Part shown: piece after piece, positions 1-58,377 of the stretch
Layout: each line of letters begins with the position of its first letter
Position numbering within the stretch: the first letter of the stretch is position 1
Origin: Ceratotherium simum simum
Taxonomy: Eukaryota; Chordata; Mammalia; Perissodactyla; Rhinocerotidae
Length of the DNA: 64,000 bases
Reading direction: 5' to 3'
NCBI RefSeq assembly: GCF_000283155.1
Contig: NW_004454207.1
Location: forward strand, 15,952,783 to 16,016,782
The notes under the pieces: model-generated
Databases searched by the model: none
The model's input: only the letters and a program-made list of their open reading frames with translations
What the model was told of the DNA's origin: nothing
Translations under genes and position numbers: made by a program

Positions 1-2027
1 ACCAACACAGGGAAAGTACAGTGGCCAAAATGGTACTAGCTTCCACAGCACATAGACTGGTTTAGGGCCAGAAGGGCCCTGGGTTCCCAGCACAAGGACT
101 GTTCAGTAACCGAGGGCATTCTGGTTTCTTAGCATGTAGGCAGACGTGGGGCCAAAATGACCCCCAGAACCCTACCTGTCAGGAAGGGGAGGGCTGGAAA
201 GTGCCCCGGGGCAGGAGCACATTGGCAATGTGGTGGCCAAAGGGGGCACCAGAGTGCTGAATGGATGCCAATAGGGCCCCACATTCCACAGCACAGAAGT
301 GGGCTAGTGCCCCTAAAGGCCCAGGGGACACCAGTGTATGGGGAGTCTGGTCTCCACAACAGCATCCAAGACGCCATTGCATGGGCACATGGTGTTTGGA
401 ACTGTCTCCAGGGCGCCAGCATTCTGCCAGGCACATGTCCAGAACAGCTCCAGGGCCACACGGGGGAATGGTACGACGCCCAAAGGGCTCATGGTTCCAC
501 AGCTGGCCAGGCTGGCTGGTAGCCAGAAGGTTTCCTAGAGCACTAGCTCCATGGATAGATGGTGGCCAAAATGGCTTTTGCTTCCTCAGTTTGCAGGCTG
601 ACTGAGGACTGGTAGAGCCCATGGTCCCGCTGTAGGAGGCCAGTAGTGTGACCTAAAGCACTCTTGTTTTTACAGCAGGTGGGAGGCAGATTGGCAAAGA
701 ACCATCAGTTTCCCAGCGTGTGGACAGGCTGGAGGCTGGAAGGAACCCTGGAACCCTAGCTGGCAGGAAATCTAGTGGCCAGGAGGTTCTGCAGGGGACC
801 ACCGAGATAGAGGTATAGTGGCTGAAAGGTGCCCCTTGCATCAGCATTTGGATGGATGGTTGCCAATAGGTCCCTGTGTTCCACAGCACAGGTGCAGGTT
901 AGTGCCCATAAGTGCCCCCATGAACCCAGAGTGTGGGATGCCTGGTTGCCAGAAGGGTGTGTAGGAGAGTGGTATAAGTGTAGGAATGGTTAGAACTGCC
1001 CCTGAAGCATCACTGTGCTGTCAGGCATGTGTCCAGAGGAGCCCCAGGGACAGAGATGGTGGGAATAACCAATTCTCAAAGGGTTCTGGGTTCTGGTCAA
1101 AAGAGTATGCAGTTCCTCAGCACATAGGCAGTCTGGGGGCTGTAACAACCCGTGGAACCCTAGCTGGGCAGGCTGGCGGTCAGAAGGTTGCCAGAGATAC
1201 CAATGTGTGGGAAGGACAGTGGCAAATGGTTCTAGGTTCTATAGCACAAAGATTCCATAGCACAGAAGGGCCCTTGGTTCTCCAGCGAGAGACCTGTTCG
1301 GTGACCAAAAGCATTCTCGTTTCTGCATCATGTGGGTAGGTTGGTGGTCTAAGAACCTTCAGTTCCTTGGCACACAAGCAGACTGGGGACCAGAAGAAGT
1401 CCCAGAACTGTAGCAGTTGGTTTTCCACAGCAGGCAGGCAGGCTGTTTGCTGAAGAACCTTCAGTTTCCTGGCACTGGGACAGGCTGGGATGCTGAAAGC
1501 AACACAAAACCTTGGTGATGGGAAGTCATCTGGCTGGGAAGTGCCCAAGGGCACCAGCGCATTGCAGGTACAGTTGCTGAAAAGGCCCCAAAGCACCAGC
1601 ATTCTAGATGGGTTCTTGTTTATAGAGCCAGTATTCTATAGCAGGAGGCTGAAAGGGCTCTCCACAGCAGGCCAGACTGCTATGAACCTATGAACACTCA
1701 GTTCCCAAGCACAAAGACAACCTTGAGGGTGGAAGGACCCTCAGAACCCTAGTGGGCAGGTCCATGGGTGGCCGGTAATTTCACCAGGGCACCAGTGCTA
1801 TGGACAAACTATAGCTGAAAGGGCTCTTGCTTCCTCAGCTTGAGAGCCAGCAGAGGATCAGTAGGGCCCATGGTTATCCTACAAGAGGGCAGTGCTGTGA
1901 CTGAAAGTGCTCTCCTTTCTACAGCAGGCAAAAAGCTGATTCAGCACCCTTGGTGGAAAGATGTCTGGTGCATGGAAAGTTCCCCAGGGCACCAGCATGC
2001 TGGAGGTGCAGTGGTAGAATAGGGCCC
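1..2027. repeat. Left, irregular part of the array
   Basis: Same phrases as the rest of the array, but the 1.5-kb phase is broken. Anchor A-like sequence occurs near 750 ('gaaccctagctggcagg') and again near 1507, only about 756 bp apart. This suggests internal loss or half-unit copies. No gene is seen. Confidence 0.6.
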
Positions 2028-2392
2028 TGTATTAGTTTGCTAGGGTTGCCATAACAAAATGCCACAGACTGGGTGTCTTAAACAACAAAAGTTTATTTTC
2101 TCACAGTTGTGGAGGCTGGAAGAGCAAGATCAAGGCGTTGGCAGGGTTTGTGTCTTCCAAGGACCCTCTCCTTAACTTGTGGATAGCTGTCTTCTGACAT
2201 GGTCTTTTCTCTGTGCACACACATCTGTATTCTAATTTCCTCTTCTTATATGGACACCAGTCATACTGGATTACAGCCCACACATATGACCTCATTTTAT
2301 ATTAATCACTTCTTTAAAGGCACTGTCTCAAAATACAATCATATTCTGAGGTACTGGGGGTTAGGGCTTGAACATGTGAATTGTGAGGAGCA
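2028..2392 (-). mobile_element. MaLR-type solo LTR (MLT1/MST-like), minus orientation
   Basis: The sequence reads 'tagtttgctagggttgcc', then 'aacaaaatgccacagactgg', then a 'tttattttctcacag' segment, and near its end 'ctgaggtactgggggttagg'. That is the reverse complement of a mammalian MaLR LTR. It begins with TG and ends with CA as read here. Flanks 'ccctg' and 'cactg' may be a decayed 5-bp TSD. It interrupts the GC-rich array, so the array is older than this insertion. The exact subfamily is not assigned. Confidence 0.75.
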
Positions 2393-2644
2393 CTGAAACC
2401 CTAGTGAGAGAGCACATTGGTGGTCAGCAGCCTCATCAGGGCACCTGCCCTGGGGGAGAGGAGGGACTGTAGCCAAAAGGGCTCAATCTCTGAGCCAAAA
2501 GTGCCCATGGTACCCAGCATGCAGTGTGTACTGTGGCCAAACTTGTCCCAGTTTTAACAGCAGGCAGGCAAATTGATGGCCAGAAAACACCGAGTAGCCA
2601 GGAGGCCAGTGGATTGTGGGCAGGAAGAAGCCCCAGAAATTTTT

Positions 2645-2841
2645 TTTTTCGGGGGTGAGGAAGATTGGCCCTGAGCTAACATCTGTGCCCATCTTTCTTT
2701 GTTTTGTATGTGGGATGCCTCCACAGCGTGGCTTGATGAGTGGTGGGTCGGTCCATGCCTGGGATTTGAACCTGCGAACCCCAGGCCGCCAAAGTGGAGC
2801 GTGTGAACTTAACCACTACGCCACTGGGCTGGCCCCCCTAT
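2645..2841 (-). mobile_element. ERE SINE inside the array
   Basis: Reverse-complement ERE: T-run, 'gtgaggaagattggccctga' phrase, B-box-like head and terminal 'ccactgggctggcccc'. It is flanked by a perfect 17-bp TSD, 'aagccccagaaattttt', at 2628-2644 and 2842-2858. It is the short form, lacking the second 'gaggaagactggccctg' block seen in longer copies. Confidence 0.93.
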
Positions 2842-2858
2842 AAGCCCCAGAAATTTTT

Positions 2859-3476
2859 AGAACACTCAGAAGACTAACACTATGGGAGTATGGTGCCTAA
2901 ATGGGACCCAGGGCACCATAGTGCTGGAAGTATGGTTCCCACTAGGGCCATATATTCCACAGCACCTGCTCTGACTAGAGCCCTTGTGACCACAGTGTGG
3001 GCAGTCTGGTCACCAAAGGGCCCCCAAGGAAGCAGTGCCTGGGCAGATGGTGTCTACAAGTGCCCCCCTGAGGCACCAGCATGGTGACAGTGCCCAGAAG
3101 AGTCCAGCGGCTCGGGAGGCAAGATGGACTCAGGCCAAAAGGGCTCATCCTGCTGATGGCCTAGTAAGAGGAGCTCTTGTTTCCAGAGCATAAGGACAGT
3201 CTAGACTCGGGACAGATCCCTGAAACCCAGGCAGGAGGGGAGGTTGGTGGCAGGAAGGTTCCCTGGGGCACCCTGGAGAGGAACGGAGAGTGGCTGAGAG
3301 GGCTCATGATTCATGGGTTTGCAAGCTGAGGGAAGCCCTGAAGGGCTCACAGTTCCCCTGGGAGATAGTAGTGCTCTGAGGGGAAATGCTCTCCTTCCAC
3401 TACCGATAATTAGGCTCGTCGCCCAAGAACCCTCCATTCTCCATAGTGCACACAGACTGGGGGCAGACAGGAATCC
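2859..3476. repeat. Partial array unit up to the first regular anchor A
   Basis: Array sequence resumes after the ERE TSD. It contains anchor B at 3151 and phrases like 'ctggtcaccaaagggccccc' (2999 on). It belongs to the end of a unit whose start has been disrupted by the MaLR and ERE insertions. Confidence 0.65.
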
Positions 3477-4992
3477 CGGAACCCTAGCTGGTGGGAAGTC
3501 TGGTGGCCAGAAGGTTCCCAAGTACACTGCCCAGATGGAGGTGCGGTGGTGAAAAGGGGCCCTATTGCACCAGGGTTCTAGGTAAATGGTTGCTTATAGG
3601 GTTCTGTGTCCCACAGCACTAAGCAGGCTAGTGTCCTTATCGGATCTCCTGGAACCCAGTGCGTGCGGGCAGCCTGGTCTCAGAAAGGACCCCCAAGACG
3701 TGCCTGGAAGTGCCCCTGAGGTGTAAGTGTCTGGAAAACCTCCCTGGTCCTAGATGTCAGGATGGAAACGATGCCAGTAGGCTTTGGGTTCCACAGCCTA
3801 CGAGGAGGGTGATTGTTGGAAGGGTATGTGGTAACACAACTCGTGGGCAGGCTGGGGAATGTAAGGGCATGGGGAACCCTGGGGTAAGCTGAAAGTCCCC
3901 ATGGACACTAATTCGTGGGCAGGCCTGGGACCGAAAGGGCTCTGGGCTCCATTGCAAATGGAGTAGCTGAGGACTGGAACGGCCAAATGCCCCCTAACGC
4001 TGGGCCTGACCAGTGACTGGGAGAGTTATGGTTTGTGCATCACGCGGGCGGGCTGGTGGCCAAAGAACCTTCGGTTCCCATACACGCCGGAAGAATCCAG
4101 GCAGGAAAGAACCCCGGAACCCTAATGAGGAGCCACGTTGGTGCTCGGAAGGTTCACTAGGGCACCCACGCGGGGTGGGGGAGGAGGGAAAGGAGGGAGG
4201 ACGGTGGCCGAAATGGCTCTAACACCTGCAACGAAAGTACCCATGTTGCCTCAGCGTGTGAGTGTACGTGTGCCTGTTTCAACAGCAGGCAGCCAAACTG
4301 ATCACTGGAAAAACCCCGGGTCTCAGGCATACTGCTGTATTGTAGGTGGGAACTACCCCGGAAACTTTTAAGACCAGAAAGTCCCTCATGACGCTAATGC
4401 TATAGAGTTTGGGTGCCAAAAGGGACCCGGAGTACCAGCGTTCTGCAAGTATAGTTCCCTGTAAGGCTGTATGTTCCGCAGCACACGCTCTGGCTAGGGC
4501 AGATGGGACCCCTTGTGCAGGTAGTGTTTCTGCGTAAAGGGCTGCCTGGGCATTAGTACCAGGGCAGATGCTGTCCAGGAGAAATGCCCATGGCACCAGT
4601 GAGGGGCATGCAAGGGTCTGGAAGCGTTCGGGCCATGAAAGGGCGACGTAGCCCAAAAGCGAAAAGTCTTGTTCTGTTGATAGCCTAGTTGGAGGAGCCT
4701 GAGTTTCCACCCCATAAGGACAGTGTAGGAACCTGAATTATCATCAGAACCCTAGCGAGCAGTCGGGTTGCTGACAGGAAGGTTCCTTGGGGCACCCATG
4801 AGACGGACAGACAGTGGCTGAGAGAACTTAAGATTCCTCAGCTAGCAAGGACTGAAGGGCTCTTGGTTCCCCTGCGGGATGACGGCACTGTGACCCAAAA
4901 TGCTCTCCTTCCCACCTCAGGCAGGCAGGCAGGCAGGTCGCCAAGAACCGTCGGTTCCCCAGAACGTGCTCAAATGGGGCCAGTAGAAAACC
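3477..4992. repeat. Higher-order unit a (1516 bp)
   Basis: Runs from anchor A at 3477 to the next at 4993 and includes anchor B at 4675. Contains a G-rich tract at 4172-4197 just before 'acggtggccgaaatggctc'. No coding potential is seen. Confidence 0.75.
4172..4197 (+). other. G-quadruplex-type motif in unit a
   Basis: Four G-runs of 4, 5, 3 and 3 separated by loops of 1, 4 and 6 nt on the plus strand. This fits the usual G3+ N1-7 rule for a quadruplex. Folding has not been shown. Confidence 0.55.
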
Positions 4993-6530
4993 CGGAACCC
5001 TAACTGGCAGGAAGTCCGATGACCGGAAGTTCGCCGGCGCACCTCTGGATCAAGGTGCAGCAGGGACAAGAGGCCCCTTGCATCAGAGTTTTAGATGGAT
5101 GGGTGCCAGTAGGACTCTGTTCTATAGATTGGGTGCAGGATAGTGCCCATATGAACCCTCCTGGAAGGCAGTGCACAGGCAGCCCGGCCTCAAAAAGGAC
5201 CCACAGAGCACCTGCACCAAGGCAGAACGTGTCCAGAAGTGCTCCATTGGTATAAGTGTCCCGAACTGCACGTGTCTGGAAGAGCCTCAGGGACCTAGAT
5301 GTCGGGATGGACACGATGCCCGGTCATCTCAGTTTCACAGCCAAAAGGAGGGTGATAATCCGAGGGTACCTGGTTCCTCTAGCTGGCGGGTGGGCTGGGG
5401 TCATAAGGATACGTGGAACCCTAGGTTCCAAGCCAGATAGTGATCGGAAGGTACCCAGGGACACTAATCCGTGGGGAATTCCATGTTTTCAGGGGTTTTA
5501 GGTTCCGTTGCAAACGGGATAGCCAGGGACCAAAAGAACCGTAGGTCCCCACGGCCAGGCCCAGCTGGTTACTGGAAGGGTCCTCACTTCTGCCTCAAAA
5601 TGTCAGGCTGGTGGCCTGATAACTTTAGGTTCCCCAAGAGACAGAACAATTCCAGACCCTAATAAACACCGGAACCTTAGGGAGGAGACATGTTGTTGGC
5701 CAGAAAGTTCATTGGCAAGGACGGTGGTTGAAAGGGCTCAGATTCCTTCACTGCAAGGGCCCGTGGTATATAAAGCCAAGTTCAGTACTGTGACATAAAG
5801 TACTCTAGCTTCAATAGCTGACAGGCAAATTAATAGCCAGAAATCCCTTGGGTCCCCAACATGTCAGTGGACTTTGGATAGAAAGAAAAAACTGGAAACT
5901 TTCTGCGCCTGAAGTCCGTTCGTGACCCTAATGCGATGTGGAGTACGGTGCCTAATTCGGACCTACGCCACCAGTGTGCTGGAAGTGTGGTTTCCTTAGA
6001 TCATATAGTCAACATCACGGGATTTGTAAAAAGCCCCTGCGATGCCAGTTCACAGGCAATCTGGTTAAATAAGGGCCCCCAGGGCCTCAGTTCTGCGGCA
6101 GACGGTGTCCGAAAATGCCCCCTGCAGCACCAGTGTGGTAGCAGGCACGTGTCCACAGGAGTCCCGGGGCCTGAGAAATCGAAATGGAGGCAGACCTAAA
6201 GGGCTCACCAAATTGATGGCTTTATAAGAGGTTTCCAATGCATAAAGATGGTTTGCGGGCCTGAAGGATCCCCGGAACCTTGGTGAGAGGGAAATTTGGT
6301 GGAAGGAAGGTTTTCTGGGGTTGCCGTGAGAGGGATGATGGTGGCCGAGAGGGCTCACTTAATCCCAAGATTGCGAGCTGACTGAAGGCCTGAAAAGCTC
6401 ACAGTTCCCCTGGGGAATGTTAGTGCTATGAGGGGAAATTGCTCTCCTTTCACTGCAGATGGGCAGGCTGATTGCCCAGTTACCCCCGGTTCTTCCAGAA
6501 CAAATACAGTCTGGGGACCAGTAGGTATCC
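4993..6530. repeat. Higher-order unit b (1538 bp)
   Basis: Anchor A at 4993, anchor B at 6211, next A at 6531. The order of subunits follows unit a. No insertion is recognised inside it. Confidence 0.75.
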
Positions 6531-8085
6531 CGGAACCCTAACTATCAGGAAGTGTGGAGGCCGGAAGGTTTCCAGGTACTCTGCCTAGATGGAGGTGCAG
6601 TGGCAAAAAGGGCCCCTCTCACACCGGGGTTCCTGATGGATGATTACTTATAGGGTTCTGTGTTCCACAGCACTAAGCAGGCTACTGTCTTTATAGGATC
6701 TCTTGAAATCTAGTGTGTGGGCAGCCTGGTCTTAGAAAGGACCCCCAAGACAACAGTGCCAGGGCAGAACTTGTCCGGAAGTGCTCCCGCAGTGCCAGCA
6801 CCCTGGACGGCTCATGCCCGGAAAACCCCCCAGTCCTAGACGTCAGGATGGAAAGGATCCGCAATGGACTTCGGGTTCCACGGTCTGCAGGGCGGGCGGT
6901 AGTCATAAGGTGTACAGTTCCCCACCTTGCAGTAGGGCCTGGGGACTTAAGGACATGCGGAACCTCAGAGGCCAGGCTGGATGGTGATGGGAAGGTCCCC
7001 GGAGACGCTATCCCCTGGGAGGCCCTTGACCAAAAGGATTCTAGGTTCCGTTGGAAACAGGGTACCTGTGGACCAAAAGGGCCACTAGTTACCCAGTTCC
7101 CGGCCTGTCCAGTGACTATAAGGATTCTGGGTTCTCCACAGGCGGACAGGCTGGTGTCCGAATAATGTTCGGTTCCCAGGCACATGTGATGACTCAGGGG
7201 AGGCAGGAGCCGTGTGACCTTCGGGAGGGGCCATGTTGGTGTTCGGCAATTTCCCTGGGTAACCAAGTGGGGACCCGGGGAAGTGGGGGGTAGGGAAACA
7301 GGAGGATAGATTGCTTCTGAAAGGCTCCGATTCCGGATCCAAAAAGGCCCAAGTTGTCTTAGGAGGAGCCCTGAACTGTGACCGAACATGATTTGGTTTC
7401 AGTAGCAGATGGGCAATTGATGGGCAGAAACCCCCGGGTCCCCAATATGCCCGTGTACTGTCGGCAAGAACGACTCCAGAAATTTATAGGAACAAAAATG
7501 CGCTCATGACACTAACACGATGAGAGTACAAGTATGGTTTCCAGTAAGGGCTTATATTCCTCAACAGGAATTCTTACTTCGGCCCATAGTGTTTCAGTAC
7601 GCACGCAGTCTGGTCACAAAAGGGCCCCCAGGACTGCAATGCCAGGGAAGATGGTGTCTGGAAGTGCTTGCCTGGGCATGAGTGCAGTGGTAAGCATGCA
7701 TCCAGAAGAGTACTGGGGACTGAGAAAGCAAGAATGACCCAGACCGAAGGAGCTAGTCCTTCTGAAAGCCAAGTAGGAGGAGCCCATGACTGCACTGCAT
7801 AAAGACGATATGGGAGCTTGACTAATTGCCGGAACCCCAGTGAATGGCAGGTTGTTGGCAGGAAGATTCCCTAGGTCACCGGCGAAAGAGACAGACGGTG
7901 GCCACGAGGGCTCAAGATTCTTGAGCTTGAGAGCTGACTGATGGCCTGAAGAGCTCATGATTCCCCTGCAAGATGGCAATGCTGAGACTGAAAATACTCT
8001 CCTTTCCACCTCAGACAGGCAGGCAGGTCGCCAAAGAACCCTTAGTTCCCCAGAACGTGCATAGATTATGGGCCTGTGGAAACCC
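6531..8085. repeat. Higher-order unit c (1555 bp)
   Basis: Anchor A at 6531, anchor B at 7761 (worn: 'tctgaaagccaagtagg'), next A at 8086. A G-rich tract at 7269-7295 sits at the same place in the unit as that of unit a, about 3.1 kb (two periods) away. Confidence 0.75.
7269..7295 (+). other. G-quadruplex-type motif in unit c
   Basis: G-runs of 4, 4, 6 and 3 with loops of 4, 4 and 2 nt on the plus strand, in the same unit position as 4172-4197. Confidence 0.55.
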
Positions 8086-9570
8086 TGAAACCCTAGATGG
8101 CAGCAAGCATGATGACCGGAAGGTTTTCTGGGTCTACACCCAGATGTAGTGTAGCGGGAAAAAGGAGCCCTATACACCAGAGTTCTGGATGGGTAGTCGC
8201 CAATAGAGACCTCTATTCCACAGCAAGGGTGCAGGCTAGTGCACATAAGGGCTTTCCTGGAAGCGTATGCACAGGTAGTCTGGTCTCAGGACCTACAGGT
8301 CACCAACACCAGGGCCAAATCTGTCCAGAAGTCCTTTCGGAGCGCCAGCACCCAGGCCAGCGTGATTCCAGTAGAACTCCCAGGTTCCTACCGATCAAAA
8401 TGGACCCGATGTCACAAGGGTACACAGTGTCCCCACGGTGGGATTAGGGACCATAAGAACACTTCTAGGAACCTTAGGTGCTGGGCCAGCTGGTGTTTGG
8501 AATAACTCTAGGGACACTAACTCATGAGCAAGCTGGTGACTGAAAGGGTTCTAAGTTCCATTGCACAAGAGCAAGCTGAGGACTGGATGGGCTATTGGCT
8601 CACCACCGCCAGGCCTATCCCGTGACCTGAAGGGTTTTAGATTTTGCATCACGGGGGCAGGTCGGTGGCGATAGAACCTTCGGTTTCCAGGCACATGAAT
8701 GACAGCGGAATGGAAGGAGCACTGGAACCCTAGAACACGGGAATCGTTGGTAACCGGAGGTTTACTAGGGCAGCGGAGCTTGGGGAAGGACGGTGGCCGA
8801 AAGGGCTCAAATTCTTTAGCTGCAAGAGCCCACGCTACCTCAGTAAGAGATCTGTACTTTGACCGAATGTACTCTAGTTTCAACAGCAGGGGGTCAAACT
8901 GATGGCAGGGAAAACCCTGATTCTCGTATAGACTGTGGGCAGGAAGGACGGAAACCTTTAGAAGGAATGGCCCTCATGACACTAACGCGATGCGAGTACT
9001 GGGGCCAAAGGGGACCCCAGGCACCAGCAAGCTGTCAGTATGGTTCCCAGTAGTCCCGTATATTCCACAGCAAGGATTCTCCCCAGTGCACTGGCAGTCT
9101 GGTTGCCCAAAGGGTTGCCACAGTGTCAAGGAAGATGGTGTCTGGAAGTGACCCCCAAGATACCAGTGAGATGTCAAGCATGTAAACGGTAAAATCGCGG
9201 GCTGTGAGAGGGAGCAATGGCTCTATGGACCCAGGGCGTAAAGGCTTCCTCCTGCTGACGTGTTGGTAGGAGGAGCCCATGGTTCCACCTGTAAGAACTC
9301 TTTTGGGGTTTGAAGAATCCCCGGAACCCTATCGAGGAGGCAGGTTGGTGGCAGGAAGGTTATTATGGGGCACCAGCTGGATGGGCGGACGGTGGCTGAG
9401 AGAGCTCTTACTTCATCAGTTCGCAGGCTGACTACGGGCGGATGAGACCCACCCCTCCTTTGCTGGTGGCTAGTGCCAGGACCAAAACCGCTTTCCTTTA
9501 CACCACAGGCGGTCTGTCAAGAACCTTAGACTAACTAGCGCACACAGAGGCTGGGGGCCGGCAGGAATAC
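8086..9570. repeat. Higher-order unit d (1485 bp)
   Basis: Anchor A at 8086 ('tgaaaccctagatgg'), anchor B at 9253, next A at 9571. The G-tract position seen in units a and c (near 8780 here) is reduced to 'cttggggaagg'. Confidence 0.75.
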
Positions 9571-10799
9571 CGGAACCCTAGCTGGCCGGAAGTCTAGAGA
9601 CCGGAAGGTTCCCCGGGGCACTGCACAGATGGAGGTGCGGTGGCCAAAAGGAGCCCCTTGCTCCAATGTTCTAAATGGATGGTTGCCAATAAGGAAATAA
9701 ATTCCACAGCACTGGAGCAAGCTAGTGCCCATAAGGGCTCTCCCTGAACCCAGTACACGGGCAGATGGGTCTCAGAAAGGGCCCACAAGGCACCAGTGCC
9801 AGGGCAGAGGGTATCTGGCGTGCCAGTGCCCTGGACCGCACCTGTCTGGAAGAACTCCGGGGTCCTAGATGCCCAAGGTCTCCGGGTTCCATAGCCTACG
9901 GGGAGGGAGATGGCCTGATGGGTATATACTTCCTTGATGACTCCGGGTCAGAAGGGGCTCTGGAATTCTAGTGAGGGGCTAAACTGGTGGTCGGAAACTG
10001 CCCCAGGGTACTCAGGCAGGTGGGGACGGACTGGGGAACGGCGGTGGCCGAAATAGCTCAGATTACTGAGCCAAAAGGAATCACGAGCAGTCAGGCCAAC
10101 TGATGGCCTGAAAATCCCCAGGACCGTGGGCGGAAAGAATTCCCTGAAACACTTAGGGTCAGAAGGGCCTTCAGGACACTATTGCAAAGGTAGTATGCTG
10201 GCCAAAGGGGGCTCTGGGGCTCCAGGGAGCTGGAAGTTTAGTTCCCCAAAGGACCATATAATTCACGGCAAGGGATTTGGGCAGGGCCCCTGTCACTAGA
10301 GTGCGCAGTAGGTCTCAATGCCAAAAGGGCCCCCGGGGCAGAAGTGCCAGGGCAGATGGTGTCCAGAGGTCCCTTCCCCACCCCCTGCCCCTCCCCCGTG
10401 ACACCAGCGAAGTGGTAGACAAGTACCGGAAGAGTCCAGCTGTTTGAAAGCGAGATATGTCTCCAGACCGAAAGGCCTGTTGATGGCCTAGTAGGAGTTG
10501 CTGGGGTTTCCCCCGCATAAGGACTGTCTCCGGGCCTGAAGGATCCCCGGAACCCTGGTGAGTGGGCATGTTCCTGGTAGGAAGATTCCTGGGCGCCTGA
10601 GCGAAGAAGAGACGGTGGCCGAGAAGGCTCCTGATACCCGAGCTTGTCAACTGACTGAAGGTTGAAGGACTCATGCTTCCTCTGCTGGACACCAATGTCG
10701 TGACTGAAAATGCTCTCTTTTCGAAAGCAGACGGGCAGGTTGGTCGCCGAAGAACCCTCGGTTCCTCAGCGTTTGCGCAGGCTGGGGTCGAAGGAATCC
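9571..10799. repeat. Shortened higher-order unit e (1229 bp)
   Basis: Anchor A at 9571 and anchor B at 10486 are 915 bp apart, against 1167-1230 bp in units b-d. B to the next A is the usual 314 bp. About 290 bp therefore appears to be missing between A and B. It holds a C-rich tract at 10376-10397. Confidence 0.7.
10376..10397 (-). other. Minus-strand G-quadruplex-type motif in unit e
   Basis: C-runs of 4, 5, 4 and 5 with spacers of 1, 2 and 1 nt, so the minus strand carries four long G-runs with very short loops. It is the strongest such motif I noticed in the window. Confidence 0.65.
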
Positions 10800-11451
10800 T
10801 GAATCCCTAGCTGGCAGGATGTCTGGTTGCCGGAAGATTTCCAGGTGCACTAGCGTGGTGTAATTAAGTTGACAGAAAGGGCTTGCGAAGCCCCACTGCC
10901 CTGGAAGGATAATTGCCAATAAGTCCTTATATTTCACAGCATGGGAACTGGCCACCATAAGGCTACCCTGGAACACAGTGTGCAGTCATGTCTCAGAAAG
11001 GGCCCTTAGAGCACCAGCACCAGGACAGAAAGTTTCTGGAAGTGCTCCTGCGTGCAACCGAGGTGGCAGGTAAGTTTCCAGAAAAGTCCTGGGGACTGAC
11101 AGGATGAGGTGGACTGAGGCAGGAAATGCTAGTACTGCTGATGGCCTAATAGGAGTTGTGGATTTTACAGCACCCGGGTTTCAGAAAGGGTGCCCGAGGC
11201 ATGTGGGTGCAATGGTTGCAGAGAAGGCTCTGGGTTCCTTTGCTAGCAGGCAGCCTAAAGCTTCCAAGGCCCTTGGGATACCAGTTCTTGGGCAGGCTGG
11301 TGGCCATAAGGGTCTTTGAGTCTGCATCTGGAGGGCTGTAGGGTGGCTGAAAGGACCCTCTCGCACCTAGTGTGTGGTCAGACTGGTGCTGCAAGGGCGG
11401 TGATTCCCGGTTGGGACAGTCTTTTTGGCCTGTAGTCTTTTGATTTCACTG
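10800..11451. repeat. Truncated last unit f of the array
   Basis: Begins at anchor A (10800). A B-like phrase, 'tgctgatggcctaatagg', follows at about 11137, some 850 bp too early for a full unit, so much of the unit is lost. Array-like text fades at about 11400 and the solo LTR begins at 11452. Confidence 0.6.
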
Positions 11452-11888
11452 TGTCAAAAGTTCAGAATAGCAGAAGTAAAACCAATGAATCACCTGGAGT
11501 ACTAATTAGTAAAAGTTTATTGTGCACATATCAAAAGAGAGTTTGCCAACTGGGAGCCCTCAAACCAAAACACGAAATGTGGCTTAAGGGTATATTGTTA
11601 TAAAGCAGCGTATATAGTGAGAAAGCAGTGACTGTTCATTCTTCACAGTGACTGCTTATAATATTAGAATTTTCTTAAATGATACGGAGTTGGTCAGTGG
11701 TTACCTCATATCAACCTTGGGAAACAGTTTGTTTAAGTTTTGCTTATGGTTTCCAGAGGTATAAACAAGAAATGACCCAGGTCAAGTTAGTCTTGCAAAA
11801 TAAGCTAAGCTTTGCTTGTATGACTGAATTGGTTTTGTCAGCTCAGAGAATTTTCAAGACTGGTCTCTATTTGTTTTTTATTTTAACA
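11452..11888 (-). mobile_element. ERV-type solo LTR, copy 1
   Basis: In plus reading it starts 'tgtcaaaag' (after a short 'tg') and ends 'ttttaaca', so on the minus strand it is TG...CA. A polyadenylation-type AATAAA lies in the minus strand at the 'gtttattgtgcacat' phrase near 11514. It aligns along its whole length with 44546-44981 ('aaaagtttattgtgc', 'ttccagaggta', 'cagagaattttcaagactgg'). Flanks 'actg' and 'acta' could be a worn 4-bp TSD, as expected for class I (gammaretrovirus-like) elements. No internal viral genes are present. Confidence 0.75.
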
Positions 11889-12121
11889 ACTATTTGAGGG
11901 CTACATGAAGGCTGGAAGGGCCCCTGAGCCCCAGAATTTGCAGTGGCTGCTCCTCATGTGCTCTTCATTGCTGGAACTCATGTCTAGTACTTTTCCGTGG
12001 AGAAATGTATCCACTACAATTCTAAGTTCAACAAAGCTGCCTTTTACAATTGAAGATGACAGATTCTCAAAAACAAGTGGCTTGGAAATGTATCATCCTT
12101 GCACTCTTGCAGAAAATTCTT

Positions 12122-12420
12122 TTTTTTCTTTTTTTTTTGTGAGGAAGATCAGCCCTGAGCTAACATCCATGCTAATCCTCCTTTTTTGCTGAGGAAGACT
12201 AGCTCTGAGCTAACATCTATTGCCAATCCTCCTCCTTTTTTTTCCACAAAGCCCCAGAAGATAGTTGTATGTCATAGTTGCACATCCTTCTAGTTGCTGT
12301 ATGTGGGACGCAGCCTCAGCATGGCCGGAGAAGCGGTGTGTCGATGCACACCAGGGATCCGAACCCGGGCCGCCAGTAGCGGAGTACACGCACTTAACCG
12401 CTAAGCCACGGGGCCGACCC
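12122..12420 (-). mobile_element. ERE SINE, long form
   Basis: Reverse-complement ERE with two 'gaggaaga' blocks and a 'ccccagaagatagttgtatg' segment shared with the copy at 28498. It ends 'ccacggggccgaccc'. The 17-bp TSD is 'tcttgcagaaaattctt' (12105-12121) and 'tcctgcagagaattctt' (12421-12437), with two differences. The short ORFs here are frames through the SINE. Confidence 0.92.
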
Positions 12421-12437
12421 TCCTGCAGAGAATTCTT

Positions 12438-17317: not shown

Positions 17318-18441
17318 AAATTTTTTTATTAGGGTCTAATTGACATACAACATTATATAAGTTGCAGGTTTACAACCTAATAATTTGATATTTGTATGCA
17401 TTGGGAAATGATCACCACAGTAAGTCTAGTTAACATCTGTCACCATACATAGTTAACAGATTTTTTTTCTTGTGAAGAGAACTTTTAAGATTTACTTTCT
17501 TAACAACTTTCAAATATGCAATACAGTGTTATTACATATAGTCACCATACTGTACATTACATCCCCATGGCTTATTTATTTTATAAATGGAATTTTGTAC
17601 CTCTTGACCCCTTTCTCCCATTTTGCTCACCCTCCATCCTCCACTTCTGGCAACCACCAATCCGATCTTTGTATCTATGAGCTTGGTTTTTTTCTTTTTC
17701 TTTTGGATTCCACATTTAGTGAGATTATACAATATTTGTTTTTTCTGTCTGACTTATTTCACTTAGCATAATGCCCTCAAGGTCCATCCATGTTGTCACA
17801 AATGGCAGGATTTCATTCTTTTAGCTGAATAATATTCCATTGTGTATATATATCACATTTTCTTTATCCATTCATCTATCAGTGGACATTTAGGTTGTTT
17901 CCGTGTCTTGGCTATTGTAAATAATGCTGCAGTGAACAGGGGGATGCAGATATCTTTTCAAATTAGTGTTTTCAAATTAGTGTTTTCATTGTCTTTGGAT
18001 AAATATGCAGAAGTGGAATGGCTGGATCATATGCTAGTTCTATTTTTAATTTTTTGAGGAACCTCCATACTGTTTTTCATAGTGGCTGTTCCAAATTACA
18101 TTCCCACCCACAGTGCACAAGAGTTTCCTTTTCTCTACATCCTCGCTAACACGTTATTTCTTGTCTCTTTGATAATAGCCATTCTGACAGATATGAGGTG
18201 ATATCTCATTGTGGTTTTGATTTGCATTTCCCTGATGATTAGTGATGTTGAGCATCTTTTCATGTACCTGTTGGCCATCTGTATGTCTTTGGAAAAATGT
18301 CTGTTCAGATCCTCTAACCAATTTTTGATCGGATTGTTTGTTTTTTTGTTCTTGAGTTGTATGAAGTCTTTATACATTTTGGATATTAACGCCTTGTCGG
18401 ATATATGATTTGCAGATATTTTCTCTTATTCAGTAGGTTGC
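17318..18441 (-). mobile_element. 5'-truncated L1, 3' end fragment
   Basis: Reads from the L1 3' end ('attgacatacaacattatat', 'gatcaccacagtaagtctag') into the end of ORF2 on the minus strand and stops abruptly at 'cagtaggttgcc'. A 17-bp internal duplication ('ttcaaattagtgttttc') lies near 17957-17990. The L1 is inactive. Confidence 0.88.
18135..18377 (-). pseudogene. L1 ORF2p C-terminal remnant
   Basis: An open stretch of 80 codons encodes the C-terminal part of L1 ORF2p, recognisable by 'NNPIKNW', '[15 protein letters not shown]' and '[10 protein letters not shown]'. In a live L1 this region follows the reverse transcriptase domain. The frame ends in 'NNVLARM' before the usual C-terminal cysteine-rich part. 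It is a fragment with no function expected. Confidence 0.85.
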
Positions 18442-19622
18442 CCAGAGTTGCTTTATTGCCAAAGGAGGAAGGAAGTGTGTTTTGGTGTGTGTGTGTGGGG
18501 GGAGCCCCTCCCAAGGAAAAAGAAACCCAAAGGAGTTCCATTCAGAATTATCTGTCAAATAATTCTTTATAAAATCAAAAGAAGGACAAAGCAATGTAGA
18601 TGTGTAAAAAATGATGAAAGCCCATCTACCTAAAGGCCTCACTGGGGGACATTATTTTGATTAATTTACCATTGTCCAGGCTCAGGTCTGTGGTTTTTAG
18701 TTCAGATAATAGATCTCAGGAGCATAGCAATAATGGATTTATCACTCCAAGTCAGATTTCTATTCACCAAGCTTAGAACTGTATGAAAATTTTTAAAAAA
18801 TTATAAAATTAAAATATCTATCTACCTACCAGCCTACCTATCTACCTATATATGTATATCAGAGTTCATATGCAGTAGAGCACATGTGTTGATATGAGTA
18901 ATATATTTTATTCCTTTAGGCGGGTCTAATGTGAGAAGCCAAACTATAAGCAAAACACTGCTAGGGAAGCATGGAATCTGGTATGAGAAGACAGATAATC
19001 TTAGGCAGTGTCCTTCAACTATAAGTTGCTTAAGCACTCTTCCTCATAGTGGGATCATAATAATATTTATGATCAAGACTCACTCTCCCCTGGACAGTGC
19101 TTAGGTGAATTCTGCACACATTTCCTTCTCCAACTCTTCTGCTTTATTTTCATTGCTGATCAACCTCAACCCAACCCATTTTTTTCTTCATGTAACTTGA
19201 TACCTCCAGTCAAGTCCCTTTTAAAAAAAAAAGGAAATATAATAATTTAATCAAGACAAGGAACTATACTAATATGTAAAGTAGTTTTATATATCCTTGC
19301 TGTTTCACTATGGGCTTAATTTATAGATTAAATTTCAGGACCACACTTAACTCCTTTATTTCCAAGTTTCACTTTTTCCCAGTAAAACCCAATTAAAATG
19401 TATCTTGAATATGATGGCATGTAATGCTTCATAACTTGACTCATGTAGAAGATTTACTAGCGTAACTGGAAATGAAGGGCTTTCTTCCCTCAATCAGCCC
19501 TTTTTTTAAGAAAGGAGAATCGAGGCCTCTGTATAAAATGGGATAAGAATCAACACCTTTCGTTTTCCAGCATCCTTGACTTTAAAGTGAGAATGCAAAT
19601 GGAAAGCATTTTTATTTTTATT
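18442..19622. other. AT-rich DNA, no gene seen
   Basis: Contains a (GT)n run at 18485-18497 and an imperfect (CTAT/CTAC)n tract at 18815-18853. Nothing else is recognised. Confidence 0.5.
18815..18853. repeat. Imperfect (CTAT/CTAC)n microsatellite
   Basis: Tetranucleotide steps 'ctat', 'ctac' and 'ctac' broken by 'cagc'. Confidence 0.75.
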
Positions 19623-19635
19623 AAAACCATTAATG

Positions 19636-19866
19636 GGGGCCGGCCTGGTGGCTTAGTGGTTAAGTGGATGTGCTCCGCTGCTGTCGGCCCGGGTTCAAAT
19701 CCCAGGCGTGCACCGATGCACTGCTTGTCAGGCCGTGCTGTGGCAGCGTCCCACATAAAGTGGAGGAAGATAGGCACAGATGTTAGCCCAGGGCCAGTCT
19801 TCCTCAGCAAAAAGAGGAGGATTGGCATGGATGTTAGCTCAGGGCTGATCTTCCTCACCAAAAAAA
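19636..19866 (+). mobile_element. ERE SINE
   Basis: Full ERE in plus orientation: 'ggggccggcctggtggctta' head with A- and B-box-like parts, two tail blocks and a poly(A). TSD is 'aaaaccattaatg' (19623-19635) and 'aaaaacattaatg' (19867-19879). The 96-codon frame across it is not a gene. Confidence 0.93.
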
Positions 19867-19879
19867 AAAAACATTAATG

Positions 19880-21102: not shown

Positions 21103-22277
21103 CTTCGAATTTTTTTATTGAGGTATAATTGACATACAACATTATATTAGTTTAAGAAGTTCAACATAATGATTCGATATTTGTATGGATTGCAAAATGA
21201 TCACCACAATAAATCTAGTTAACATCTGTCACCAATCATAGTTACAGAATTTTTTTTTCTTGTAATGAGAACTTTCAGGATCTACTCTTTTAGCAACTTT
21301 CAAATATGTAATACAGTATTATTAACTATAGTCACCATGCTGTACATTACATTTCCATGACTTATTTATTTTATAACTGGAAGTTTGTACCTTTTGACTC
21401 CCTTCATCCATTTTGCCCAACCCCTCTCCCCCACCTCTGGCAACCACCAATCTGTTCTCTGTATCTATGTGCTTGGTTTGTTTTTTGTCTTTTCTTTTTT
21501 CTTTTTTTTTAGATTCCTACATATAAGTGAGATCATATGGTATTTGTCTTTCTCTGTCTGACTTATTTCATTTAGCATAATGCCATCAAGGTCCATCCAT
21601 GTTGTTGTAAATGGCAAGATTTCATTCTTTTTCATGGCTGAATATTATTCCGTTGTATATATATATAACATTTTCTTTATCCATTCATCTATCAATGGAC
21701 ACTTAGCTTGTTTCTATATCTTGGCTATTATAAATAATGCTGCACTGAACATGGAGGCATAAGTATCTTTTCAAATTACTGTTTTCATTTTCTTTGAATA
21801 AATACCCAGTAGTGGAATTGCCAGATCGTATGGTAGTTCTATTTTTAATTTTTTGAGGAACTTCCATACTGTTTTCTGTAATGGCTGCACCAATTTACAT
21901 TCCCAACAACAGTGCATATAGGTTCCCTTTTCTCTATATCCTCACTAGCACTTGTTATTTCTTGTCGTTACAATAGCCATTCCAACAGGTGTGACATGAT
22001 ATTTCATTGTGGTTTTGATTTGCAATTCCCTGATGATTAGTGATGTTGAGCATCTTTTCATGTGCCTGTTGGTCATCTGTATGTCTTCTTTGGAAAAGTG
22101 TCTGTTAGATCCTCGACCCATTTTTTAATAGGTTTGTTTGTTTTTTTGTTGTTGAGTTGTATGAGTCCTTTATATATTTTGGATATTAACCTCTTGCCAG
22201 ATATATGATTTGCAAATATTTTCTCCCATTCAGTAGGTTGCCTTTTCATTTTGTAGATGGTTTCCTTTACTGTGCAT
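21103..22277 (-). mobile_element. 5'-truncated L1, 3' end fragment
   Basis: Same L1 3' region as at 17318-18441: 'attgaggtataattgacata', 'gatcaccacaataaatctag', and ORF2 end in reverse to 'cagtaggttgcc' plus about 35 bp more. It stops after 'actgtgcatcccc', where other L1s continue 'agaagctttttagtttgatg'. Confidence 0.88.
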
Positions 22278-22764: not shown

Positions 22765-24726
22765 TCTTTCTTTCTTTATTATGTAAGTTTCAGGTGTATA
22801 ACATTATCATTTGACATCTGTGTACGCTACAAAGTGATCAACCTCCAAAAGTCTAGTTACCATCCATCACCCTACCCCTCACCCCTTGACGCCCTTCACC
22901 CCTTTCGGCTACCCCTCAATCCCCTTACCCTCTGGTAACCACCAATCTGTTCTTTGTTTCTATGAGTTTGTTTTTGTTTTGTTTGTTTGTTTGTTTTTAG
23001 ATTCCACTTATGAATGAAATCATATGGTATTTGTCTTTCTCCTTCTGACTTATTTCACTTAGCATAATACCCTTAAGGTCCATTTATGTTGTTGCAAATG
23101 GAAAGATTTCACTTTTTTGTGTGTCTTAGTAGTATTTCATTGAATATATATACCACATCTTCTTTATCAGTTCATTCATTGATGGAGACTTAGGTTGTTT
23201 CCATATCTTGGCTATTGTAAATAATGCGGCACTGAACATGGGGGTGCAGATATCTTTTCAAATTAGTGTTTTTGTATTCTTTGCAAAAATACCCAGTAGT
23301 GGAATACCTGGATCATATTGTAGTTCTATTTTTAGTTTTTTGAGGAATCTCTGTACTGTTTTCCATAGTGCATCAATTTACAATCTCATCAACAGTGTAC
23401 AAGGGTTCTCTTTTCTCTGCATCTTCTCCAACAGTTGTTATTGCTTGTCTTTTTGATAATAGCCATTCTGACAGGTGTGAGTTGATATCATTGTGGTTTT
23501 GATTTGCATTTCCCTAATAATTAGTGATGTTGAACATCTTTTCATGTGCCTGTTGGCCATCTGTTTATCTTCTTTGGAAAAATGTCTATTGAGATCCTCT
23601 GCCCTGTTTTTTAATTGGGCAGTTTGTTTTGTTGTTGTTGAGTTGTATGAGTTCTTTATATATTTTGGATATTAACCCCTTATTGGATATATGATTTGCA
23701 AATATCTTCTCCCATTCAGTGAGTTGTCTTTTCATTTTGATGATGGGTTCTGTTGCTTTGCAGAAGCTTTTTGGTTTGATGTAGTCCCATTTGTTTATTT
23801 TTGTTTTTGTTTCCCTTGCTTTTGGAGTCAGATCCACAAAAACATCACTAAGACCAAGGTCAAGGAACTTACTGGCTATATTTTCTTCTAGGGATTTTAT
23901 GGTTTCAGATCTTACATTTAAATCTTTAATCCATTTTGAGTTAATTTTTTTGTATGGTGTAAAATCGTGATCGAGTTTCATTCTTTTGCTTCTGGCTGTC
24001 CAGTTTTCCCGCCACCATTTATTGAAGAGACTGTCTTTTCTCCATCGTATGTTCTTGGCTCCTTTGTCATAAATTAATTGTCCGTATATGTGTGGGTTTA
24101 TTTCTGGGCTCTCAGTTCTGTTCCATTGATCTGTGTGTCTGTTTTTGTGCCAGTACCATGCTGTTTTCATTACTATAGCTTTGTAATATCGTTTGAAATC
24201 AGAGAGTGTGATACATCCAGCATTGTTCTTCTTTCTCAAGATTACTTTGGCTATTTGGGATCTTTTGTGGTTCCATACAAATTTTAGAATTATTTGTTCT
24301 AGTTCTGTGAGATATGCCATTGGAATTTTGATAGGGATTGTATTGAATCTGTAGAATGCTTTTGGTAGTATGGACATTTTCACAATATTAATTCTTCCAA
24401 TCCATGAGCATGGCATATCTTTCCATTTATTTGTGTCGTCTTCAGTTTCTTTCATCAATGTCTTATAGTTTTCAGTGCACAGGTCTTTAACCTCCTTGGT
24501 TAAGTTTATTCCTAGGCATTTTATTCTTTTTGATGTAATTGTAAATGAGATTATTTTCTTAATTTCTCTTTTCGGTAGTTAGTTATTAGTGTATAGAAAC
24601 ACCACAGATTTCTGTATATTGATTTTGTATCCTCTGACTTTACTAAATGCATGTATTAGTTCTAACAGGTTTTTTTGGTGGAGTCTTTAGGGTTTTCTAT
24701 ATATAGTATCATGTCATCTGAAAACA
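22765..24726 (-). mobile_element. 5'-truncated L1 with TSD
   Basis: A single minus-strand L1 insertion of about 1.96 kb. The T/C-rich run at its left end ('tctttctttcttta') is the tail. TSD 'taaactcttag' lies at 22754-22764 and 24727-24737. It covers the 3' UTR and the last third of ORF2. A (TTTG)n tract sits at about 22973-22997. It retains the longest L1 frame in the window. Confidence 0.9.
23586..24458 (-). pseudogene. L1 ORF2p remnant, 290 codons
   Basis: Open frame encoding the region downstream of the L1 reverse transcriptase. Recognisable pieces in order are '[19 protein letters not shown]', '[11 protein letters not shown]'-like text, '[20 protein letters not shown]', '[16 protein letters not shown]', '[13 protein letters not shown]' and '[18 protein letters not shown]'. 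It ends early ('KKQGRGSQ') by frameshift or substitution before the usual C-terminus. The catalytic reverse transcriptase and endonuclease domains lie upstream and are absent because the insertion is truncated. Not a host gene. Confidence 0.92.
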
Positions 24727-28497: not shown

Positions 28498-28708
28498 TTT
28501 TTTTTAATAATTTTATTTATTTATTTATTTTTCCCCAAAGCCCCAGTAGATAGTTGTATGTCATAGCTGCACATCCTTCTAGTTGCTGTATGTGGGACGC
28601 GGCCTCAGCATGGCCGGAGAAGCAGTGCATCGGTGCGCACCCGGGATCCGAACCCGGGCCGCCAGCAGTGGAGTGCGCACGCTTAACCGCTACGCCACGG
28701 GGCCGGCC
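28498..28708 (-). mobile_element. ERE SINE
   Basis: Reverse-complement ERE: T-rich run, 'ccccagtagatagttgtatg', 'gggatccgaacccgggccgc' and terminal 'ccacggggccggccc'. Perfect TSD 'ctttggtactgaatttt' (28481-28497 and about 28709-28725). It shares the 'tagatagttgtatgtcatag' tail with the copy at 12122, pointing to one subfamily. Confidence 0.95.
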
Positions 28709-28725
28709 CTTTGGTACTGAATTTT

Positions 28726-30309: not shown

Positions 30310-30386
30310 AGCTTGTTTTTAGGTATATTGAGTGAAGTGGAAACATAGAAGCTTGTTTTTAGGTATATTGAGTGAAGTGGAAACAT
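30310..30386 (+). repeat. Perfect tandem duplication, 40-bp period
   Basis: Two identical 37-bp copies, 30310-30346 and 30350-30386, each starting 'agcttgtttttaggtatatt', separated by 'aga'. No differences, so the duplication is recent or kept identical. Confidence 0.95.
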
Positions 30387-31459: not shown

Positions 31460-31707
31460 TGGGGCCGGCCCGGTGGCGCAAGCGGTTAAGTGCACGCGCT
31501 CCGCTGCGGCAGCCCGGGGTTCGCAGGTTCGGATACTGGGCGCGCATGGACGCATCGCTTGTTAAGCCATGCTGTGGCAGCGTCCCATATAAAGTAGAGG
31601 AAGATGGCCACGGTTGTTAGCTCAGGGCCCATCTTCCTCAAGGAAACAAGGGGACGATTGGCATCAGATGTTAGCTCAGGGCTGGTCCTCCTCACAAAAA
31701 AAAAAAA
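31460..31707 (+). mobile_element. ERE SINE, young-looking
   Basis: Full plus-strand copy with a CpG-rich head ('ggcgcaagcggttaagtgca' then 'cgcgctccgctgcggc'), B-box-like 'ggttcggatactgg', two tail blocks and poly(A). Perfect 16-bp TSD 'aagagcaaatgacttt' at 31444-31459 and 31708-31723. The retained CpGs and perfect TSD suggest it is among the younger copies. Confidence 0.96.
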
Positions 31708-31723
31708 AAGAGCAAATGACTTT

Positions 31724-32409: not shown

Positions 32410-32828
32410 TAACTTTGTAATCGCTTGAAAAGACTTCCCTACCACCATCCCCTTCCCTGCAGCTTTGAAGGCAACCACTAACATGAATTTAATATGTATT
32501 ATCTCTTGCCTTTTTATGGAGGTTTAACGTATATATTTGAATCCCCAAAATATATTGTTTAATTTTGCATGTTTGGGATCTTTACATAAATCAAATCATA
32601 ATTCTCTGTGAATTCTCTGAAAAGTTTTTCTTTCAAAATTTTGTTTCTGAAATACAACCATTTTTTTTTTTTTTGCTGGAAATCGTCCTATATATTGTTA
32701 TATAATATTCCATTGCATGAATATACCCAATTTATGTATTCAGTCTGCTGTTTACAGACAGGTAGACAGTTACTAATTGTTTCTGGTTTTGTTGTTTTTG
32801 TTTTTGTTATTGTGTTTTATGAAATTTC
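32410..32828 (-). mobile_element. Old L1 3'-region fragment
   Basis: 'aaggcaaccactaacatgaa', 'aatattccattgcatgaata' and 'agttactaattgtttctggt' match the L1 3' UTR as read on the complementary strand. More worn than the L1s at 17-25 kb. Confidence 0.6.
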
Positions 32829-32973
32829 TTTTTTTTTTTTGTGAGGAAGATCAGCCCTGAGGTAACATCCGATGCCAATCCTCCTTTTTGTTTTTTTGCT
32901 GAGGAAGACTGGCCCTGGGCTAACATCCACGCTCATCTTCCTCTACTTTATATGGGACGCTACCACAGCATGG
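32829..32973 (-). mobile_element. 5'-truncated ERE SINE
   Basis: Only the 3' part is present: T-run, 'gtgaggaagatcagccctga' block, 'gctgaggaagactggccctg' block, ending at 'accacagcatgg'. The tRNA-like head is absent. No clear TSD found. Confidence 0.88.
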
Positions 32974-40512: not shown

Positions 40513-40754
40513 GGGGCTGGCCTGGTGGCGTAGCGGTTAAGTACACGCACTCCCGCTTTGGTGGCCCGGGGTTCACAGGTTTGGATCCTGGGTGTGCACC
40601 AACACACTGTTTGTCAAGCCATGCTGTGGCAGCTTCCCATATAAAGTAGAGGAAGATGGGCACGGATTTTAGCCCAGGGCCAGTCTTTCTCAGCAAAAAG
40701 AGAAGGATTGGCAATGGATATTAGCTCAGGGATAATCTTCCTTTCACACCCAAA
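40513..40754 (+). mobile_element. ERE SINE inserted in L1
   Basis: Plus-strand ERE, 'ggggctggcctggtggcgta' head to A-rich tail. TSD is 'aaaattgagaacctct' (40497-40512) and 'aaaattgagaacttct' (40755-40770), one difference. Confidence 0.94.
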
Positions 40755-40960
40755 AAAATTGAGAACTTCTATTCATATAAAGACATTTTTAAAGCATGAA
40801 AAGGCAAGCCACAGAGTGGGAGAAGATACATGAAATGTCAATCTAATACAGGACTCATATCCAGACATATGAAGAACTATTACAAATCAACAGGGAAAGA
40901 ATTGACAATGCAAATTGAAGTTTAGATAAAATATGTGAACAAGGACTTCACAAAAGAGAA

Positions 40961-44545: not shown

Positions 44546-44981
44546 TGTCAAAAATCCAGAATTAGCAAAATTAAAACCACCAAATCAATAAATAGTATTT
44601 AATAAGAGTTTATTGTGCCTATAAGAACAGTTTATGAACTGAGAGCTTCCAAATTCAGAGACTGATATAAAGCTCAGGCATGAAGTTACAGGATGGCTTA
44701 TAAAGTAAAAATGAGAAAGTTGTTAACCTTTACAATGATTGGTTTTTACAATGGGGGTTTCCAGATAGCAGAGGATTGGTTAAAAGTGAGTATCTCATAC
44801 CATTTTTAGGAAAATGTCTTAAATTTCTCTTATGATTATGAGAGGCATTTACAAGAAATAACCCAAGTTTCACTTATGTTCCTGAAATAAGGTAGATTTA
44901 GTTTTGCTCATGTGACTTAAATGGTTTTGTCTACTCTGAGAATTCTCAAGTCCAGTCTCCATTTTGTATTTAATTTTAACA
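44546..44981 (-). mobile_element. ERV-type solo LTR, copy 2
   Basis: 436 bp, 'tgtcaaaaatccagaattag' to 'ttttaaca' in plus reading. 4-bp TSD 'ctat' at 42-45 of the 44500s (44542-44545) and at 44982-44985. The minus strand has AATAAA at 'gtttattgtgcctat' (about 44607-44622). Same family and length as 11452-11888. Confidence 0.85.
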
Positions 44982-45209
44982 CTATCAAGTAAACTTTTGG
45001 TAATAATATATCCTCACTTGTACCACATAAAATAAAACAGGGCCTCACCACATTTATATCTGTATATAATCTACATTTTACTGTACATCTGAATTTATGG
45101 TTCAGCTAATTATTTAGGACATTATAGATATTTAATTTCTTGAATGTATTTTAAATGTTATATTAAACTTCTGTTATTATTATGAAATCCTAATTAAGAG
45201 AGTCTTTTA

Positions 45210-45460
45210 GGGGCCTGCCCAGTGGCGTGGTGGTTAGGTTCACGCACTCCGCTTCATCGGCCTGGGGTTCACAGGTTCGGATCCTGGGTGTGGACCTATG
45301 CACTGCTTATTAAGCCATGCTGTGGCAGGTGTCCCACATGTAAAGTAGAGGATGATGGGCATGGATGTTAGCCCAGGACCAGTCTTACTCAGCAAAAAGA
45401 GGAGGATTGGCAATGGATGTTAGCTCAGGGCTAATCTTCCTCGCCAAAAAAAAACAAAAG
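45210..45460 (+). mobile_element. ERE SINE
   Basis: Plus-strand copy, 'ggggcctgcccagtggcgtg' to the A-rich tail. TSD approximately 'agagagtctttt' and 'agagagattctttt'. The head is worn, e.g. 'gtggttaggttcacgc' for 'gcggttaagtgcacgc'. Confidence 0.9.
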
Positions 45461-45627
45461 AGAGAGAGAGATTCTTTTGTATTATTTTTATATGAGAAAC
45501 CCAGGTTGACCTCATTACCTTTATAACCAAGACCCTAAGGCCAACCATGAGAAGGCTGGTGGACATACCTGTCTTAATATGCACAGTAGAATGCTGTCTA
45601 AAAAGTGTCTTCTCCTATTTGGGGGTA

Positions 45628-51318: not shown

Positions 51319-51659
51319 CCCAGGGAGAAATCCTATTTGATCATAGTGAATTATCCTGTTTAATGTGCTCCTGAATTCAGTTTGCTAGTATTTTGTTGAG
51401 AATTTTTGCATCTATATTCATCAGGAATATTGACCTGTAGTTTTCCTTTCTAGTAGTGTCTTTATCTGGCTTTTGTATCAGGATAATGCCAGCCTCATAA
51501 ATTGAGTTTGGGAGTGTTCCCTCCACTTTGGTTTTTTTGAAACTGTTTGAGAAGGATTGGTGTTAATTCTTCTTTTCATATTTGGTAAAATTCACCAGTG
51601 AAGCTATCTGGTCCTGGGCTTTTCTTCACTGGGAGATTTTTGATTACTGATTCAGTCTT

Positions 51660-58360: not shown

Positions 58361-58377
58361 TCCAAACTTAATATTTT

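Follow-up and report, generated by a model that had tools for sequence, protein, structure and literature searches.

The 64-kb window considered here (the whole stretch of DNA that was analysed, from contig NW_004454207.1; all positions are coordinates in this window) opens with a tandem array of some 250 copies of a 43-bp monomer, which from position 2872 onward are arranged in higher-order units of about 1.5 kb. Examined at this single locus, the array is quite probably an inactive, decayed macrosatellite relic with nested repeat levels, and the present role best supported for it is none at all, that of a genomic fossil. Its GC content is 54%, against 35% for the remainder of the window, and its CpG observed/expected ratio is 0.34, against 0.22 in the flank. 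According to the unit profile, the leftmost array sequence continues past position 1, with the left end lying outside the window, while on the right monomer similarity ceases at about 11400-11450. A preliminary description of this DNA had assigned a tandem repeat with a 1.5-kb unit to positions 1-11451. The repeat does extend throughout that span and ends near that limit, but a regular 1.5-kb phase is found only from 2872; positions 1-2870 hold the same repeat as phase-jumping fragments with two inserts, not as regular units.

The 43-bp monomer constitutes an inner repeat layer that the preliminary description overlooked: the 1.5-kb unit it reported is real, but is itself composed of about 36 such monomers. 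Base autocorrelation in the array reaches a z of 7.8 at lag 43, with further peaks at 85/86, 127, 170 and 213, and within the unit consensus lag 43 gives the top identity among lags 1-699 (0.421). Trained on the array, a cyclic 43-bp profile reaches a score of 2064, whereas three Markov shuffles given the same training score 107, 152 and 133, and its mean top-base frequency is 0.57 in the array versus 0.35 in the shuffles. The phase advance totals 264 monomers when the stretches under the two inserts are included, and the figure of some 250 refers to the 249 of 265 slices that entered the monomer comparison. The array therefore possesses the short tandem monomer of a higher-order satellite (43 bp, about 250 copies). 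The monomer consensus, GGCAGGCTGGTGGCCGGAAGGGCCCCCGGTTCCCCAGCACGCG, is GC-rich, and any two monomers share a mean identity of 0.43. A GGGCAGG-like core occurs 12 times on the plus strand, versus 3.8 expected. Additionally, columns 6-13 of the consensus read GCTGGTGG, of which five copies lie on the plus strand (0.5 expected there) and none on the minus strand. We take this sequence to be the Escherichia coli Chi octamer; comparisons between Chi and the cores of GC-rich minisatellites have been drawn, but the presence of the octamer in the monomer is probably a coincidence.

The higher-order unit is evident from self-BLAST of the window, which yields many direct matches inside the array, displaced by about 1.5 kb or a multiple of it. 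Positions 2885-4175 match 5940-7272 at an offset of 3055 (1353 columns, 68.5% identity, E 7e-136) and 2892-4156 match 4412-5711 at an offset of 1520 (1343 columns, 64.9%, E 2e-54); in addition, 2928-3683 matches 7530-8289, 4678-5243 matches 7763-8335, and further offsets within the array are 4602, 3085 and 6108. The top length-normalised 8-mer offsets include 6098, 3046, 4599 and 1547, alongside 8820, 9416 and 7329. The off-diagonal similarity at about 1.5 kb, whose absence the preliminary description had named as refuting its claim, is thus found by self-BLAST. Unit boundaries are cuts at one chosen conserved phrase (Table 1), and the spacings of the resulting starts (1518, 1530, 1588, 1466 and 1198 bp) lie near the periods reported earlier. 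The last matched column of the unit profile is 1549, which corresponds to 36.0 monomers (36 x 43). In U5, about 263 unit columns are skipped near 9934, where the phase passes from 1004 to 1268. Pairwise identity among U1-U6 is 58.4-69.7% (15 pairs), with U6 being the most diverged (58-62% to the other units); being just 58-70% alike, the copies are not homogenised and lack the high identity of an active satellite. Apart from these units and fragments, the unit-profile matches listed comprise just one on the minus strand of the array (E 0.52) and one at 63247-63286 (E 2.9). Tandem Repeats Finder, with a longest period of 500, reports no repeat in 1-11450, a negative that probably reflects the strong divergence of the copies and the length of the unit.

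Table 1. Features of the array and its right edge, in window coordinates.
Feature	Position	Strand	Basis
Whole array, about 250 43-bp monomers	1-11450	+	Cyclic 43-bp profile, monomer slice comparison, composition
Unit fragment, broken phase	10-130	+	Unit profile
Unit fragment, broken phase	122-515	+	Unit profile
Unit fragment, broken phase	511-1413	+	Unit profile
Unit fragment, broken phase	1422-1649	+	Unit profile
Unit fragment, broken phase, overlapping the insert at 2027	1702-2071	+	Unit profile
LTR-like dispersed repeat inserted in array	2027-2388	+	Self-BLAST, 68.6%
Unit fragment, phase 1283-1535	2382-2645	+	Unit profile, E 3e-40
Ere-type SINE inserted in array	2640-2838	-	Self-BLAST to other window copies, about 68-85%
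Unit U1, 1518 bp, 34.9 monomers	2872-4389	+	Unit and monomer profiles
Unit U2, 1530 bp, 35.9 monomers	4390-5919	+	Unit and monomer profiles
Unit U3, 1588 bp, 37.1 monomers	5920-7507	+	Unit and monomer profiles
Unit U4, 1466 bp, 33.9 monomers	7508-8973	+	Unit and monomer profiles
Unit U5, 1198 bp, 27.0 monomers	8974-10171	+	Two unit-profile matches
Unit U6, 1279 bp, 29.2 monomers, at array edge	10172-11450	+	Unit and monomer profiles
Probable detached monomer	11886-11928	+	24.3 bits

Shuffling the order of the monomers destroys the similarity between units, which identifies the 1.5-kb period as a true higher-order repeat that a simple minisatellite does not explain: with the inserts left out, 21 self-matches of at least 70 bits are observed, compared with none in nine of ten such shuffles and one in the tenth. 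At the level of single monomers, 114 of the 249 have their best partner at some multiple of about 1.53 kb, against about 42 expected, and between 2871 and 10171 the proportion in the same phase rises to 109 of 169; monomer phasing by this partner test is strong only in U1-U5. Growth by duplication of a unit of about 1.5 kb followed by ageing, as originally proposed for this block, is borne out by the unit alignment, the unit tree, the monomer-order control and the decay of CpG.

Older duplications are preserved inside the unit consensus, in which 15-204 resembles 677-878 (72.8%, E 5e-30) and 347-624 resembles 1290-1560 (67.1%, E 7e-22), which means that some segments had already been duplicated when amplification of the whole unit began. 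Among the units, U1 and U3 form the closest pair (K 0.40), and the unit tree separates {U1,U3} from {U2,U4,U5,U6} with a support of 99, grouping U2 with U4 at 67-73 and U5 with U6 at 51-57. Units of the same parity in U1-U5 are more alike by 0.025 (block bootstrap 95% confidence interval 0.012-0.039), and a duplication step involving two units (about 3.05 kb) is suggestive only. Strict alternation of two unit types was rejected, since it does not match the supported split.

The left part of the array is broken into six fragments that match the unit profile between 10 and 2645 with E from 3e-11 to 6e-147, and is interrupted by two inserts. One is a dispersed repeat resembling a long terminal repeat (LTR), presumably of MaLR/MLT1 type, with a second copy at 41337-40989 (K 0.303 over 330 sites, 75.5%). 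The other is a short interspersed element (SINE), presumably of the Ere family; its minus orientation is deduced from the T-run at its left end, and the direct repeat AGCCCCAGAAATTTTT present on both sides of it is read as a target-site duplication. Beyond the right edge, the probable detached monomer exceeds the maximum of 22.7 bits reached in 20 shuffled flanks, and the next flank site scores 16.0. Some 430 bp of AT-rich sequence separate this monomer from the array, and part of this sequence recurs elsewhere in the window: an AT-rich dispersed repeat at 11696-11893, which adjoins the array edge and is possibly inserted in it, has a counterpart at 44785-44985 (71% alike by self-BLAST). A mobile insert is presumed there.

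The array shows several signs of decay, namely CpG loss, broken phase, and the Ere-type and LTR-like inserts. C to T changes affect 25.2% of 314 consensus CpG but 13.2% of the 1770 remaining C; for G to A the figures are 17.5% of 314 consensus CpG and 11.7% of 2245 positions elsewhere. Such CpG-biased substitution is expected of methylated DNA once homogenisation has stopped. Unit-to-unit K is 0.40-0.62, or 0.275-0.496 away from CpG-like sites, and eight Ere-like copies in the window give K of 0.164-0.303 (mean 0.243, 28 pairs), so that the units have diverged about twice as far as the Ere-like mean, the Ere K being without CpG correction. Because unit K exceeds that of the Ere-like copies, the units had probably separated before the Ere elements of this window were inserted, and their separation is perhaps older than the order itself.

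A sequence of events that would account for this organisation can be proposed. Its nested levels are shown by the sequence itself. A GC-rich 43-bp monomer was first amplified in tandem, and blocks of monomers were then duplicated, as the older duplications within the unit still attest. The unit that was amplified next comprised about 36 monomers (about 1.55 kb), and amplification possibly proceeded partly as unit pairs (about 3.05 kb), a level only faintly marked in the sequence. Unequal exchange or gene conversion is the presumed engine of these steps. Homogenisation then probably ceased, and the copies diverged by substitution, foremost CpG loss, by loss of pieces and by insertion of mobile elements.

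Several observations weigh against the interpretation of the array as a decayed, inactive relic. Same-phase best partners amount to 2 of the 51 monomers of 1-2870 and to 3 of the 29 of U6, which is no more than chance, so that the phase in these parts is carried by the unit profile and BLAST alone, and the unit-to-unit K depends on aligning copies of such limited identity. Along the unit, conservation is distributed more patchily than in permuted columns (for its variance, p is 0.001 or less at each of three window sizes; its maximum is unexceptional at 20 and 43 columns, with p of 0.21 and 0.09, and has p of 0.047 at 86 columns), and within phase no monomer columns are more alike than 18-19 (AA; 0.817 and 0.786). 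CpG monomer columns are more variable (mean 0.536 versus 0.658), which attributes part of the patchiness to mutability; together, the patchy conservation and the slow AA doublet could reflect mutability, alignment effects or weak constraint. Furthermore, with one locus seen, live arrays elsewhere would limit the term inactive to this piece. The array might in that case be the degenerate edge of a larger living satellite, situated to the left or elsewhere, whose margin escaped homogenisation. Such an origin is in keeping with the way the array runs off the window start, with the strong divergence of the outermost right unit, U6, and with the ageing of outer layers that one account describes for centromeric satellites (PMC9024551), but it is rather unlikely, given that the left 2.87 kb, toward the cut end, is more broken than U1-U5, not less.

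The patchy conservation of the unit, its slower AA doublet and the CpG ratio above that of the flank can also be read as traces of a retained function, whether as a CTCF/DXZ4-like boundary, a platform for a protein that reads the AA motif, or a transcribed repeat RNA. Such a role is nevertheless very improbable. CTCF-like sites, scanned with a position matrix, are not enriched in the array, numbering 0 at 12 bits or more, 1 at 10 bits and 5 at 8 bits, against means of 1.35, 3.53 and 7.69 in 100 Markov controls, and the DXZ4 CTCF domain, as quoted from its publication (PMC10656420), scores 10 in the array, a value reached by 60 of 60 controls. The excess of C to T at CpG suggests germline methylation, and both the fragmentation of 1-2870 and the shortening of U5 have been tolerated. 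The exact CENP-B core NTTCGNNNNANNCGGGN has no match on either strand of the window, decayed boxes not having been sought, and Rfam gives no match at gathering score anywhere in the window. That the array is a decayed family of tandem genes, or a coding exon rich in repeats, is hardly credible: the GC-rich block does contain 29 of the 64 stop-free frames of at least 90 codons in the window (the other 35 lie in the flank), with lengths of 90-235 codons, but they occur on both strands, 43 is not a multiple of 3, and none of the 12 of these 29 open reading frames that were tested matches Pfam. On the Pfam and Rfam results, a coding or RNA gene was rejected. Eight of the 35 flank frames yielded a single Pfam match, to a reverse transcriptase, and no host gene was recognised among the frames tested (12 in the array, 8 in the flank).

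What the relic once was is a separate matter. It has been considered that the array is the fossil of an ancestral GC-rich centromeric or pericentromeric satellite that existed before the equid satellite 37cen, either in odd-toed ungulates or in an earlier laurasiatherian ancestor; it would then mark the site of a lost centromere or of an old fusion, and would occupy the same place in rhinoceros and tapir. This idea, which is quite doubtful, is founded on the satellites of inactivated equid centromeres, which are described as staying behind and then being progressively lost (PMC9024551).

The flanking sequence of the window is populated by further repeats. Segments 17319-18442, 21108-22276, 22886-24726 and 49046-50885 are related to one another (77-83% alike by self-BLAST) and appear to be L1-like; the Pfam reverse-transcriptase match lies at 50968-51381 on the minus strand, near the last of them. 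Self-BLAST also detects SINE copies, again presumed to be of Ere type, at 12126-12421, 19636-19871, 28525-28710, 31460-31709, 32825-32973, 40513-40758, 45210-45462, 57625-57866 and 58115-58363, three Ere-type copies containing a duplicated segment, listed by Tandem Repeats Finder as 50-52-bp repeats at 12133, 19763 and 45347. Within the sequence, it is these presumed Ere-type SINEs that point to a perissodactyl. The same program finds a 40-bp tandem duplication at 30310-30386 (1.9 copies, 100% match), which is apparently recent.

Satellites usually turn over too fast to reveal how nested repeats arise. In this array several duplication layers are legible within one short locus, mobile elements inside it give relative dates, and it could help to trace the birth and death of such arrays. 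Orthologous copies in rhinoceros, tapir or beyond, should there be any, would provide a clock for satellite death and possibly an ancestral centromere mark, in a group whose centromere movement is well studied.

Among known systems, Jeffreys-type GC-rich minisatellites carry a GGGCAGG-like core, which the array shares, adding to it a higher-order unit of 36 monomers. Among the papers listed by searches of an open-access library for such an array or for equid macrosatellites, none describes it, as judged from titles and abstract openings; one match for a 43-bp repeat concerns a human KLRC breakpoint. A viral contig collection scanned with the monomer pattern gave 0 matches, mammalian DNA not being expected there. 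The main equid satellites 37cen, 2PI and 137sat (EC137) are described with units of 221, 23 and 137 bp, respectively (PMC9024551). Like the array, 37cen is GC-rich and tandem, but as far as these descriptions go the three are set apart by unit length from an array of 43 and about 1540 bp, none of the lags 221, 23 and 137 being among the top array lags listed; the earlier view that this is not a main equid satellite agrees with the published lengths. Equid DXZ4 (horse and donkey) is summarised as having a monomer of about 8 kb with three CTCF elements in each (PMC10656420), and horse DXZ4 is said to be similar to human DXZ4 beyond the CTCF domain (PMC3491370). The locus that characterises DXZ4 lies between PLS3 and AGTR2. 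A kb-scale tandem unit is common to both, although it measures 1.5 kb in the array, and homology with DXZ4 was rejected because the unit sizes differ and the CTCF element is missing, the comparison covering the quoted CTCF domain.

By analogy of design, the closest known counterpart would be ruminant satellite I (including bovine 1.715), in which a short subrepeat is likewise embedded in a kb-scale repeat. As described, cervid satellite I has a 31-bp subrepeat within monomers of 0.8-1 kb and a GC content of 54% in four cervid rows (PMC7288315, PMC2760882). Membership in this family fails on subrepeat length, as the array has 43 bp within about 1.55 kb, its period is 42-43, and 31 is absent among the top lags listed. 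Moreover, the satellite I clones are 93-100% alike in the four rows and the array copies 58-70%; on these accounts satellite I is a common centromeric family, whereas the array is one worn locus.

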